Source of the DNA: Candidatus Chromulinivoraceae bacterium
GTDB taxonomy: Bacteria > Patescibacteriota > Saccharimonadia > Saccharimonadales > Saccharimonadaceae
Direction of reading: 5' to 3'
NCBI GenBank assembly: GCA_035478595.1
Contig: DATIJL010000019.1
Span: 1 to 39,684, forward strand
Length of the DNA: 39,684 bases
Below, piece by piece: positions 974 to 22,558 of this stretch (position 1 is its first letter; every line of letters starts with the position of its first letter). The position numbers were made by a program, and so were the translations under genes. The notes beneath the pieces are model-generated. The model did no database searches. It saw only the letters and a program-made list of their open reading frames with translations, and was not told where the DNA came from.

Positions 974-1007
974 ACCAAAAATACCGCTCTAAGGCGGTAT
1001 TTTTGGT
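974..1007. terminator. Bidirectional intrinsic terminator between rplT and rnpB
   Basis: A perfect 14-bp stem (974-987 with 994-1007) closes a 6-base loop. The A-rich outer arm on one strand is a T-rich tail on the other, so it can end both the plus-strand ribosomal protein operon and the minus-strand rnpB transcript. Confidence 0.9.
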
Positions 1008-1008
1008 T

Positions 1009-1355
1009 GACAGCCCGTCGGTAAGCCGGGTTCTGTCGTGGATGATCATCTATCTAGTCTAGTGGTTGCCCACTAGATCGAGCGGGTATCGACCTACGGA
1101 CGGACCGTCCTTTAATGTAGATCTCCTTGCAGCTGACAGGGTTTACCTCCTCCGTACGTCACCGTACGTTGCTGTGGGCTCTTACCCCACTCCTTTCACC
1201 CTTACCTCAGGTTGCCCTGAGGCGGTTTCGTTTCTGTGGCACTTTCCCTAGGGTTTCCCCCGGTCGCCGTTAGCGACTGTCATGTCCTATGCTGCCCGGA
1301 CTTTCCTCTTAAGTACCTATAAGGGTGATTAAGCGATCATCTAACGAACTGTCTG
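1009..1355 (-). ncRNA. rnpB: RNase P RNA, bacterial class A
   Basis: This is the catalytic RNA that cuts the 5' leaders off pre-tRNAs. On the minus strand it has the universal P4 5' element GAGGAAAGTCCGGGC (about 1301-1315) and the 3' element ACAGAACCCGGCTTA (about 1021-1035), the two halves of the catalytic core. The ends pair as expected: GACAG (1349-1353) with CTGTC (1009-1013) for P1, and GATGATC with GATCATC for P2. Length is about 347 nt, which is normal. The 5' end is set from the -10 box at 1361-1366 and the 3' end by the shared terminator. Open reading frames seen inside this RNA are not genes. Confidence 0.96.
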
Positions 1356-6869: not shown

Positions 6870-7482
6870 ACGACTCTATCTCTGAAATGACGGCACTCCA
6901 ATCTAGACAGCGCACCATGTCTGGCAACAACGTGCGATCACTGCTCCACGGGTATTCGCCAAAAAGCACGACGCGCTCCACACCGGCGGCACGTAGCGCC
7001 TCTTCGCCATGCCCCATATGATCATCTATTAATACCTGCGCACCAATGGAGTTACAAACGTCTCCTTTTGAGCGACGAGTGACGGTACTTGTTGAGGACA
7101 CGATGAAATTAGTGTGTTCGACACTTACAAAACAGTCTTTAAAATAGCGCTCAAGCATGCGCTTTGTGACGTCCTGAAGAAAATCAGCCCGCCCCGTAAC
7201 CAGGTGAAGCTCATGAATATCTGCCAGCTGGTGTACTGCACGGACTGACTGTTCACTTGGCGCAATAGCTGCGTGCTTGTCCGAACGCAAGAATTCATTA
7301 ACTCGTTCGATCGCCTGATCATCACTACTAGTTCCCCACGTCTCCAATCGTGCTGGCTGATACATATCACGCAATGTCAACTTGGTTCCAAACCGCTCGT
7401 TATAATCGTCAATGATGTTCTGCGAGGTTGGCATTAAGACATCATCACAGTCAATCGCAATTACCAGACGCCTACCTCGCAT
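6856..7482 (-). CDS. HAD-family 5'-nucleotidase-like phosphatase
   Basis: A 208-residue haloacid dehalogenase-fold protein. Motif I is AIDCDDVL near residues 9-16 (nucleophile Asp followed by Asp two residues on), motif II is LVTGRAD near residue 96 and motif IV is VLIDDHMGHG near residue 150. The layout resembles 5'(3')-deoxyribonucleotidase-like proteins (NT5C type), which dephosphorylate nucleoside monophosphates; the substrate is not proven. Its ATG overlaps the thrS stop by one base (TAATG) and its end overlaps the ATL start, so it is translationally coupled within the thrS operon. Confidence 0.85.
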   Translation of the reverse strand: MRGRRLVIAIDCDDVLMPTSQNIIDDYNERFGTKLTLRDMYQPARLETWGTSSDDQAIERVNEFLRSDKHAAIAPSEQSVRAVHQLADIHELHLVTGRADFLQDVTKRMLERYFKDCFVSVEHTNFIVSSTSTVTRRSKGDVCNSIGAQVLIDDHMGHGEEALRAAGVERVVLFGEYPWSSDRTLLPDMVRCLDWSAVISEIESYANR

Positions 7483-9293
7483 TACAAACCCCTTAGATGC
7501 TCCGCGAGATCCGTCAGCTTCACTTTTTCTTCGCCAGCCTGAGTGCGGATACTTACTTCCCGAGTTTCTTTATCCTTCGGACCCACAATCAGTTGGACAG
7601 GAATCTTCCAGCTAGTTGCTTCGCGAATCTTTTTACCCAAGCTCTCGTTGCGATCATCCACTGTGTAGCGCATCTCATTATACTTAACAGGTTTCATAAG
7701 AACCATGTCACGCAAAATTACTTCGACTTCTGCCACGTAATCAAGTACGGTATCGTTAATCGTCAATACCCGTACCTGCTCTGGCGCTGCCCATAAAGGG
7801 AACCAACCTGCTGTATGTTCGATAAAAACGCTTAGAAACCGTTCGATAGAACCAAGTAGCGCACTGTGGATCATAACCGGGCATTGAGCCTGGCTATCAG
7901 TATCAGTATATACAAGGCCAAACCGTTCTGGCTGTACGAAGTCGAGTTGCACAGTTGCAAGCTGATGCTCACGGCCAAGAGCGTCTGTCGCCATAAAATC
8001 GATCTTTGGACCGTAAAATGCCGCCTCTCCATTCTGCTCAAAATATTCGAGATTATTCGCAATAACAGCGGCCTTGAGCTGTGCCTGTGCAGACTCCCAA
8101 AGTTCCGGAGCACCGAGGTATGAATCGCTTTCATCACGGTAGCTTAGACGAACTCGCAGTTTCATTCCAAGTGTAGTATACAATTCATTCGCGCTAGCAA
8201 GTAGGCCGTCAATCTCATCCTCAATCTGATCGTGACGACAAAAGACGTGACTGTCATCCTGCGTTAGCGAACGCACGCGGTTCAATCCACCAAGTTCACC
8301 TGTTTTCTCATCTCGATAATCTGTGGTTGTCTCAAGAAAGCGGACCGGCATATCGCGATAGCTCCTCGGACGTGATGCAAAAATTTGCGTATGATGCGGA
8401 CAGTTCATCGGCTTCAACACCATTTCGTCACTTGTTTCTTGACTCTCTACTAAGAAAAGCTCATCTCCAAACTTCGCCCAGTGGCCCGAAGCCTCGTACA
8501 GTTCTTTCTTAGTAATATGTGGAGTCCACACCTTCGTAAAACCGCGAGCCTGACGAAGCTGATTTGAATATTGCGCAACAATGTCACGAAGTACCGTTCC
8601 ACGTGGCGTAAACATGGGTAGACCAACGCCAACTAGGTTCGATATAGTATATAGGTCTAGCTCCTTGCCAAGCTTACGATGGTCACGAAGCTTCGCCTGC
8701 TCCATTAGCTCGAGATATTCATCAAGTTCTTCTTGGGTCGCAAAGGCAACGCCGTATAATCTTTGCATCTGCGCATTCTTCTCGTTACCACGCCAATAAG
8801 CACCAGCCACGCGCATCAGCTTGAATGCACCAACATCCTTAGTGTTAGCCACATGCGGACCACGACAAAGATCGGTAAAGTCGCCATTTTTATAAAACGA
8901 CACTTCATCAACAGCGGACTCACCTTCGGCAATTGTACCAAGTTCGTCCGCATCAAGGTCTTTGGCTACGGTAGTGCCGGAGCGTTTGAGGTCGTTTAAT
9001 AGCTCCTCTTTATAAGGTTGCCTACTCTCTTTCGCCCAAGCAATCGCGGCGTCGACTGGCATAGTTGAGCGCTCAAATTCCTGTGCTTCAGTAATAATGC
9101 GACGCATAGTTTTTTCGATCTTACCAAAGTTAGCCTCGGAAATTTTTTGATCCCCTAGGTCAATATCGTAGTAAAAACCGTTTTCTACCACCGGACCAAC
9201 GCCAAATTTAGCCTCTGGCCAAAGACGTTTTACCGCGGCAGCGGTGATGTGCGCAAGACTGTGTCTCATTGCATGCAGTTGTTCATCGTTCAT
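7482..9293 (-). CDS. thrS: Threonyl-tRNA synthetase lacking the TGS domain
   Basis: This enzyme charges tRNA-Thr. It is 603 residues long and starts directly in the editing domain: HSLAH near residue 10 (HxxxH) and DLCRGPHV near residue 140 (Cys and His of the editing site). The class II catalytic core follows, with MNCPHH (zinc Cys), RDEKTGELGGLNRVR and the C-terminal anticodon domain. The TGS domain found at the N-terminus of E. coli-type enzymes (about 60 residues) is absent. The frame is open to 9365, but ATG 9293 has AAAGGAG six bases upstream, and the extension would run back through the riboswitch terminator. First gene of the operon with the HAD, ATL and miaA genes. Confidence 0.96.
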   Translation of the reverse strand: MNDEQLHAMRHSLAHITAAAVKRLWPEAKFGVGPVVENGFYYDIDLGDQKISEANFGKIEKTMRRIITEAQEFERSTMPVDAAIAWAKESRQPYKEELLNDLKRSGTTVAKDLDADELGTIAEGESAVDEVSFYKNGDFTDLCRGPHVANTKDVGAFKLMRVAGAYWRGNEKNAQMQRLYGVAFATQEELDEYLELMEQAKLRDHRKLGKELDLYTISNLVGVGLPMFTPRGTVLRDIVAQYSNQLRQARGFTKVWTPHITKKELYEASGHWAKFGDELFLVESQETSDEMVLKPMNCPHHTQIFASRPRSYRDMPVRFLETTTDYRDEKTGELGGLNRVRSLTQDDSHVFCRHDQIEDEIDGLLASANELYTTLGMKLRVRLSYRDESDSYLGAPELWESAQAQLKAAVIANNLEYFEQNGEAAFYGPKIDFMATDALGREHQLATVQLDFVQPERFGLVYTDTDSQAQCPVMIHSALLGSIERFLSVFIEHTAGWFPLWAAPEQVRVLTINDTVLDYVAEVEVILRDMVLMKPVKYNEMRYTVDDRNESLGKKIREATSWKIPVQLIVGPKDKETREVSIRTQAGEEKVKLTDLAEHLRGL

Positions 9294-9315
9294 ACGTGAC
9301 TCCTTTTTGATAATT

Positions 9316-9485
9316 AAAAAACATGCGATGACTGGTTTTAATAATATTAAATCCATATATCGCATGTCTCGGACCCTTTATGGGCGGTTCCACCGGACTT
9401 CCTGCTTGGCAGGCGCTCATGAAACACGTTACGTACGTGTTACTCCCACGGAACTCGGCGGATGGTTAGACCGCGTCTATGTTCG
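9316..9485 (-). promoter_or_regulatory. T-box riboswitch of thrS, apparently ultrashort stem I type with terminator
   Basis: The thrS leader contains the T-box core GGTGGAACCGCC (about 9383-9395). It folds as an antiterminator: CGG (ending 9394) pairs with CCG, the seven-base bulge UGGAACC is ready to bind the tRNA acceptor end, and GCCC-AUAAA-GGGU forms the upper helix. Downstream is a terminator with a 9-bp stem (9321-9329 with 9359-9367), an inner AT-rich hairpin and T6 (9316-9321). At the 5' end a short hairpin GCGG...CCGC (9458-9474) shows the loop UCUAACCAU, holding ACC, a Thr codon followed by A. An AGUA S-turn-like motif lies in the next helix region, and CCTGC-CAA-GCAGG forms a third stem. 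Uncharged tRNA-Thr would favour read-through into thrS. Confidence 0.88.
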
Positions 9486-21821: not shown

Positions 21822-22558
21822 ACACTATCCGTTTCTATTGGTACTTGAATTGCGCTCTGACTAGTTGCATATGGAATAACACGAACTTCCATTCGTCTGC
21901 CCACAAATGTCCCAGGCACAGCATTTACACACAAATCATGCTGAACACTAGTAAGCGCAGCCGAGATCATACTGCCGAGATTCGTCTGCATTCCATCTTG
22001 AGTAAAGGTTACAATGGAACCACTGAGTGGCGAACGAACTATCAGAATAGATAGTGGCATAGGCGAAGTTGTCTTTGGCTTTACCACTTGAGCGCCCCAG
22101 CCCACTACTTGTGTATCTTGATTGATTGGAGAAATGCCAAGCTTGTAGTTATTGGCAATCTCAGCGACGTCACTTACCTGCGCGGTTGTGTTAGGTAGCT
22201 CGTAACCAACAACGTTTGAGGCTGTCAGATTGGTACCTGTTGCATCTATTGTAATAAACCGACCCAAAATAACGCAGTTAGTTGTACCACGAGGTTGTCC
22301 CGCTGACGGATTAGGTGCAACCGACACGTTGCCAGAACTATCACATGTCCAATTTTGGTCACGACTATTCGCTACAGAGGTAACTTGACTATATTGCTGC
22401 TGAATATAAGATTGAAGCGAACTCACACTGTCACGATATCGCTGTTGATTGATAGCAATTCCTGATCCGACCAAAACAGATGCCGCCAAAAGCCCCGTTA
22501 CCGCGAGGAACAGCATGACTTCGATAACGGTAAAACCTGCTCGCTTCATAGTGCCCAT
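21812..22558 (-). CDS. Type IV minor pseudopilin, GspH/FimT-like
   Basis: A 248-residue pilin-like protein. The head MGTMKRAG is followed by FTVIEVMLFLAVTGLLAASVL, a clear prepilin cleavage site and helix. First gene of the four-gene minor-pilin set after pilD. TATAAT at 22567-22572 (minus) lies 8 nt before ATG 22558; ATG 22549 (MKRAG) is the alternative start. No Shine-Dalgarno is present. Confidence 0.88.
   Translation of the reverse strand: MGTMKRAGFTVIEVMLFLAVTGLLAASVLVGSGIAINQQRYRDSVSSLQSYIQQQYSQVTSVANSRDQNWTCDSSGNVSVAPNPSAGQPRGTTNCVILGRFITIDATGTNLTASNVVGYELPNTTAQVSDVAEIANNYKLGISPINQDTQVVGWGAQVVKPKTTSPMPLSILIVRSPLSGSIVTFTQDGMQTNLGSMISAALTSVQHDLCVNAVPGTFVGRRMEVRVIPYATSQSAIQVPIETDSVCD

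Follow-up and report, generated by a model that had tools for sequence, protein, structure and literature searches.

A putative miniature T-box with a transcription terminator upstream of thrS in Saccharimonadia

The leader of the threonyl-tRNA synthetase gene thrS in a Candidatus Chromulinivoraceae bacterium (positions 9484-9316, minus strand, of the window, the whole 39,684-nt stretch of contig DATIJL010000019.1 analysed here) is of the T-box type and probably decides whether transcription continues into the gene. We consider it highly probable (roughly 0.87) that this leader is a T-box of miniature architecture, belonging to none of the classes that we found, that controls thrS transcription. 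Its anatomy, its covariation, its specificity for Thr and a strand shared between antiterminator and terminator can be read at the sequence level.

The thrS locus and its leader

The thrS gene encodes a 603-residue protein whose match to the TIGR00418 profile (603.8 bits, cut-off 383.65) identifies it as a threonyl-tRNA synthetase (ThrRS). The mechanical open reading frame begins at 9365 and takes in leader sequence, whereas thrS itself starts at 9293. The closest named thrS loci, at 74-77% identity, are those of Saccharimonadia/Saccharibacteria metagenome-assembled genomes (MAGs), in agreement with the "Saccharibacteria-like" label given to the gene in a first-pass annotation. The same window also carries a complete bacterial class A RNase P RNA (1006-1352, minus strand; 269 bits). 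The elements of the locus, in the order of transcription, are as follows.

9519-9491, minus strand: putative promoter, -35 TTGCAA (9519-9514), 17-nt spacer, -10 TATGAT (9496-9491); 9/12 consensus matches
9481-9484, minus strand: 5' arm GAAC of the stem I basal helix P0, partner 9454-9451; 4/4 pairs covary, 97.2% paired over 92 leaders
9475-9480, minus strand: kink-turn 5' strand AUAGAC; GA/GA signature in 84/92 leaders
9471-9474, minus strand: 5' arm GCGG of the stem I upper helix P1, partner 9461-9458; 4/4 pairs covary, 98.1% paired
9462-9470, minus strand: apical specifier loop UCUAACCAU, 9 nt; same loop size in nearly all leaders
9464-9466, minus strand: specifier codon ACC (Thr), followed by A9463; ACN in 92/92 leaders
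9458-9461, minus strand: P1 3' arm CCGC, covarying
9451-9457, minus strand: kink-turn 3' strand CGA and P0 3' arm GUUC, with covariation and the GA/GA signature
9448-9450, minus strand: pseudoknot 5' strand CGU, partner ACG (9434-9432)
9423-9441, minus strand: P2 hairpin AACACG-UACGUAA-CGUGUU, whose loop holds ACG 9434-9432; inner pairs covary in 3/3 columns, 81% paired
9401-9418, minus strand: RRRNG motif GAGCG and stem III CCUGC-CAA-GCAGG, followed by AA at 9400-9399
9366-9398, minus strand: antiterminator, A1 GUCCGG/CCG-A-GAC, bulge UGGAACC (9392-9386), A2 GCCC-AUAAA-GGGU; -9.6 kcal/mol
9316-9370, minus strand: intrinsic terminator, hairpin from GAGACAUGCGAU, U6 tail 9321-9316; -20.6 kcal/mol
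9300-9304, minus strand: Shine-Dalgarno AGGAG, 6 nt 5' of the start codon and downstream of the terminator
7482-9293, minus strand: thrS, start codon at 9293

Conservation of the leader beyond chance

Compared with its shuffles, the 196-nt leader folds better by 4 sd; this is weak evidence when taken alone, and orthologs were therefore collected. Among 149 genomes of the order, thrS was located in 144; the gene was also found in named Saccharibacteria MAGs, and many of these genomes carry UGGNACC about 100 nt upstream of it. Of 295 genomes of the order, 124 are matched by a covariance model built from 17 ortholog leaders, nearly all of them a single time. Among 68 matches examined, 67 had a thrS position, and every one of these (67/67) lies upstream of thrS on the same contig and strand, at a median distance of 78 nt. 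A match is missing in about 58% of the sampled genomes of the order, so the switch is dispensable.

Alignment of 97 matches yielded 92 distinct leaders, the set behind all covariation and specifier counts. The conserved structure is 93% paired over these leaders, compared with 32-42% when the partners are slid, and contains 341 double-changed cells as against 86 in shuffles; the leader structure is far beyond chance. A plain minimum free energy (MFE) fold of the leader lacks stem I and pairs the P1 3' arm to the T-box, but as a picture of the conserved fold it is overridden by the covariation. Rfam searches with the leader, at gathering score and at E<=10, gave only chance miRNA/snoRNA matches. 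A search with the T-box family RF00230, proposed in the first-pass annotation, left the window without a match up to E 10 but did recover two orthologous leaders, L015 (36.4 bits, E 5e-7) and L018 (34.4 bits, E 2e-6), both below the gathering score of 93, which is a database threshold and not a structural criterion.

A TATAAT-like box (at least 5/6 matches) is found within 20 nt of stem I in 86 of the 92 leaders. In 72 of the 86 it is placed 6-7 nt 5' of stem I, so that in most leaders the transcript should start exactly where stem I does.

A truncated stem I presenting a threonine codon

Double changes occur at all eight stem I pairs, and its two helices are 97-98% paired over the 92 leaders. 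The apical hairpin, GCGG-UCUAACCAU-CCGC in the window, ends 4 bp above the kink-turn in the 9-nt loop, with neither an upper stem I nor an IDTM. In form, this is a canonical stem I truncated right above the specifier. The specifier A and C are invariant and only the third base changes (ACC in about 81 leaders, ACG in 5, ACU in 5 and ACA in 1, with four loops of odd length judged by eye), and the next base is a purine. This pattern points to a leader specific for Thr.

The first-pass annotation had described an ACC codon with its following A exposed in the loop of a tiny decoding hairpin. Both the codon (9466-9464) and the shortness of the stem stand, but the idea of a mere hairpin does not, as the canonical basal helix and kink-turn are kept. 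The alignment of thrS leaders suggested there shows covariation and an unchanging ACN; neither of the sequence-level outcomes that it had named as speaking against a T-box, absent covariation or an unconserved Thr codon, occurred.

A pseudoknot in place of stem II

Directly 3' of the basal helix, without a gap, the leader has an H-type pseudoknot that replaces stem II, the S-turn and the IIA/B element of other T-boxes. The CGU:ACG pairing is fully formed in 87 of the 89 leaders that have letters on both sides, and in some of these it changes in concert to CGC/GCG, CAU/AUG, CUA/UAG or CAC/GUG. A loose pattern search for the S-turn (GAA/AGUA) found an S-turn-like arrangement in only 7 of 92 thrS leaders, compared with 13 of 19 ileS/valS leaders. 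Pairing of a GCUU 3' of stem I with a downstream AAGU was considered and dropped, because GCUU covaries with an upstream arm (AAGC/GAAC/GAGU/GUGC). Neither the covarying pseudoknot nor the phylum-wide spread reported below was part of the earlier reading of this leader.

Stem III, antiterminator and the match to tRNA-Thr

Further downstream, GAGCG-CCUGCCAAGCAGG-AA in the window fits the RRRNG-StemIII-AA motif described for T-boxes (PMC7778990). This pattern is found in 43 of 80 parsed leaders, stem III being reduced or absent in the others. Both antiterminator helices covary (A1 86% paired and A2 98.6% paired over the 92 leaders), which substantiates the initial view of the T-box core as a proper antiterminator with CGG/CCG around UGGAACC followed by GCCC/GGGU. 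UGGNAC is present in all 92 leaders, as UGGNACC in 80 and UGGNACA in 12, and the RNA 5' of the bulge measures 80-95 nt in many leaders (92 nt in the window).

All three tRNA-Thr genes of the genome have U73 as discriminator base, to which the bulge UGGA is complementary; among 35 tRNAs read from 30 loci of the genome, U73 is limited to Thr, Cys and Lys. A control from the same genome is a valS T-box that combines GUC with UGGU, matching A73 of tRNA-Val.

Terminator and switching geometry

A strong terminator ending in T6 after the T-box core, as anticipated in the first-pass annotation, is present at 9370-9316; a promoter/terminator scanner misses it because of its loop limit of 8 nt. The strand GAGAC (9370-9366) is common to the terminator and the A1 3' arm. 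A U-tract hairpin starting 2-5 nt inside the A1 3' arm, mostly with GAGAC as the shared strand, is found in about 84 of 92 leaders, as scanned between 8 nt upstream and 15 nt downstream of the model end with G-U pairs allowed, a procedure that leaves the exact first pair uncertain. Where the shared strand varies, it does so together with both partners: GAGAC goes with GUC and GUUUU or GUCUU, GAGGC with GCC and GCUUU, and GAAAC with UUUC and GUUUU.

When the antiterminator is forced, the fold of the window leader is 2.2 kcal/mol less stable than the terminator fold; over 85 leaders the median gap is 5.2 kcal/mol. The default state should thus be off, and tRNA would make up the difference. The overlap between antiterminator and terminator is only 3-5 nt. 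In the window the forced antiterminator removes only the lowest terminator pairs and leaves a 7-bp remnant of -13.7 kcal/mol; since this remnant can still form, base pairing alone does not guarantee read-through, and the switching geometry is the weak point of the switch model. Antitermination would hence have to act through the shorter stem next to the U-tract, sterically through the bound tRNA, or in both ways. The first-pass annotation had noticed by eye that mutual exclusion is partial, with GAC common to the antiterminator and the terminator arm. The same overlap recurs across the thrS leader family, and this conservation argues for design rather than a misreading.

A model for thrS control

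In the model that we favour, the nascent RNA would begin at stem I, and the short kink-turn stem would show ACC in its apical loop, where it could pair with the anticodon of tRNA-Thr(GGU), the adjoining H-type pseudoknot probably orienting the stem. When the tRNA is uncharged, its UCCA end would pair with the UGGA bulge and stabilise the antiterminator, which would remove GAC from the terminator base and allow RNA polymerase to read through into thrS; with charged tRNA, the full terminator would form and thrS would be off. The binding of tRNA, the sensing of its charge and the direction in which thrS is switched are inferred here. Both known affinity boosters, the IDTM and the stem II S-turn, are absent from the window thrS leader, which counts against the model; so do the small overlap between antiterminator and terminator, the missing RF00230 match in the window, and the many genomes of the order that lack a hit.

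An unlikely alternative is that the T-box acts mainly at translation or in a mixed mode, with a weak U-tract terminator and control through access to the Shine-Dalgarno as in actinobacterial ileS. The well-studied ultrashort stem I T-boxes are indeed translational (PMC10482949, PMC7583486), and such an output would also accommodate the few terminator pairs that the window antiterminator takes away. It would leave the retention of a U-tract hairpin beginning in the antiterminator strand in about 84 of 92 leaders unaccounted for, however, and the Shine-Dalgarno of thrS, located past the terminator, stays free of pairing in the leader's centroid fold, with no visible sequestrator. Much less probable still is that the leader is a relic, a T-box descendant that has lost tRNA sensing and now acts as a constitutive attenuator. 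The shortened stem I, the missing stem III in many leaders, the genome reduction of Patescibacteria and the patchy presence of the leader would all suit such decay, but ongoing selection on the leader is shown by the pseudoknot and all functional helices, each with double compensatory changes, by the synonymous-only change of the specifier and by the bulge fitting U73.

The lowest probability falls to feedback by the ThrRS protein. The Escherichia coli thrS translational operator mimics the tRNA-Thr anticodon arm and binds ThrRS, and the leader in the window would share with it the control of the same gene, and has a conserved hairpin that carries a Thr triplet and could be taken for such a mimic. 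Its loop, however, holds the codon ACN and not the anticodon NGU, on which ground a ThrRS-binding operator was rejected, and protein feedback has no place for the T-box bulge, the matching discriminator base, or the glyS, valS and aspS cousins with codons of their own. Attenuation by a leader peptide was likewise rejected, as there is only a single Thr triplet. Transcriptional control by a T-box is the reading that we retain.

Comparison with known T-box classes

T-boxes are known mainly from Firmicutes, with some in Actinobacteria and few in other phyla (PMC2494555). In the four-class scheme, classes I and II are generally transcriptional and have a long stem I with an IDTM, whereas classes III and IV are mostly translational with a short or intermediate stem I, class III needing stem II (PMC10482949). 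The thrS leader resembles class III, as in ileS of Nocardia farcinica and Mycobacterium tuberculosis (PMC10482949, PMC10651847), in its short stem I, kink-turn, lack of an IDTM and apical-loop specifier. It differs from that class in a loop of 9 rather than 5-6 nt, in having one H-type pseudoknot instead of an S-turn stem II or separate IIA/B, in a terminator and free Shine-Dalgarno instead of Shine-Dalgarno sequestration, and in reading Thr rather than Ile, in Patescibacteria rather than Actinobacteria.

With class I (RF00230; Bacillus subtilis tyrS type) the leader shares the basal helix and kink-turn, RRRNG-stem III-AA, the UGGNACC antiterminator and the terminator, but it lacks the upper stem I, IDTM, side-bulge specifier and S-turn stem II, and it stays far under the RF00230 gathering threshold. 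Class II, as in B. subtilis glyQS, is likewise of the transcriptional type and without stem II or S-turn, yet glyQS has a long stem I with an IDTM and a single-stranded linker where stem II would be, unlike the Patescibacterial glyS mini leaders L299 and L313, which have no long stem I and no stem II.

By every structural feature that sequence allows one to test, the leader is a T-box, with the switch overlap only partly present. It seems to join the stem I of class III to the output of classes I and II, with the middle domain of neither. In the open-access literature we found no published class in which an ultrashort stem I goes together with a terminator while an S-turn stem II is lacking, and no relevant T-box report for Saccharibacteria or Patescibacteria. 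The covariation, the ACN in all leaders and the terminators in about 84 of 92 uphold the earlier proposal of an ultrashort stem I joined to a transcription terminator outside Firmicutes and Actinobacteria.

Related leaders across Patescibacteria

In a sample of 380 genomes from across the phylum, a second covariance model matched 69, and 32 of the 44 phylum-wide matches examined precede thrS. Other mini leaders carry GGA/GGC before glyS, GUC before valS, and GAC with a UGGC bulge before aspS (target genes named by eye from the protein sequences); the tRNA-Asp of the window genome has G73. The glyS leaders, from elsewhere in Patescibacteria, are L299, L308, L313 and L314, each with a mini stem I showing GGA/GGC; in L299 and L313 the stem II domain is missing altogether, and they apparently have neither an IDTM nor an S-turn. 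The idea that most Patescibacterial glyS genes have a mini T-box failed, with candidates in only 3 of about 29 glyS leaders. One further mini T-box-like leader (L323; loop AUAUUGGCA, bulge UGGAACC) is followed by no recognisable synthetase, and the strongest RF00230 match in the order (L114, G114:C20:147-443; 89 bits) precedes a methyltransferase-like open reading frame, not a synthetase.

The window genome has a second ultrashort stem I T-box, before a GNAT-ileS operon (L002:1555-1745; C5, about 22110-22300), with GCGG-UUAUCG-CCGC presenting the Ile codon AUC in its loop, an S-turn stem II and a UGGU bulge; RF00230 scores it at only 35.8 bits and seemingly misplaces stem I. In many of this and other Saccharibacteria ileS leaders (L002, L121, L123, L124, L125, L128, L129, L304 and L305), a terminator candidate consists of the stem III 3' arm and sequence past the antiterminator, for example AUCCCUUUUUAGAA ... 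UUCUAAGAAGGGAU-UUUU in L002 (duplex -17.6 kcal/mol). These ileS terminators would, it seems, form at the expense of stem III and with the antiterminator looped out, a pattern spotted by eye and supported at several loci by duplex energies. The valS T-box of the same genome (L001:1501-1700; C4:77443-77642, minus strand) has an intermediate stem I with a side-bulge GUC and no room for an IDTM, and its strong terminator takes up the whole A1 3' arm; it looks like a class IV-like sensor with transcriptional output.

Implications

We regard the thrS leader as a candidate fifth T-box class, by comparison with the open-access literature. It seems fairly likely that such a class, lacking the IDTM and S-turn stem II, having a new H-type pseudoknot and still transcriptional, is spread through Patescibacteria. 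If true, this would run counter to the idea that transcriptional T-boxes depend on a long stem I to capture tRNA quickly, and it would make their need for contact with the tRNA elbow directly testable. A mini T-box of this kind would show how little RNA suffices for reading both the anticodon and the charged end of a tRNA, and would provide a natural regulator of small size for organisms in which genetic tools are scarce. A compact, phylum-wide T-box would add a bacterial group that ranks among the largest and least studied to those known to sense tRNA directly.
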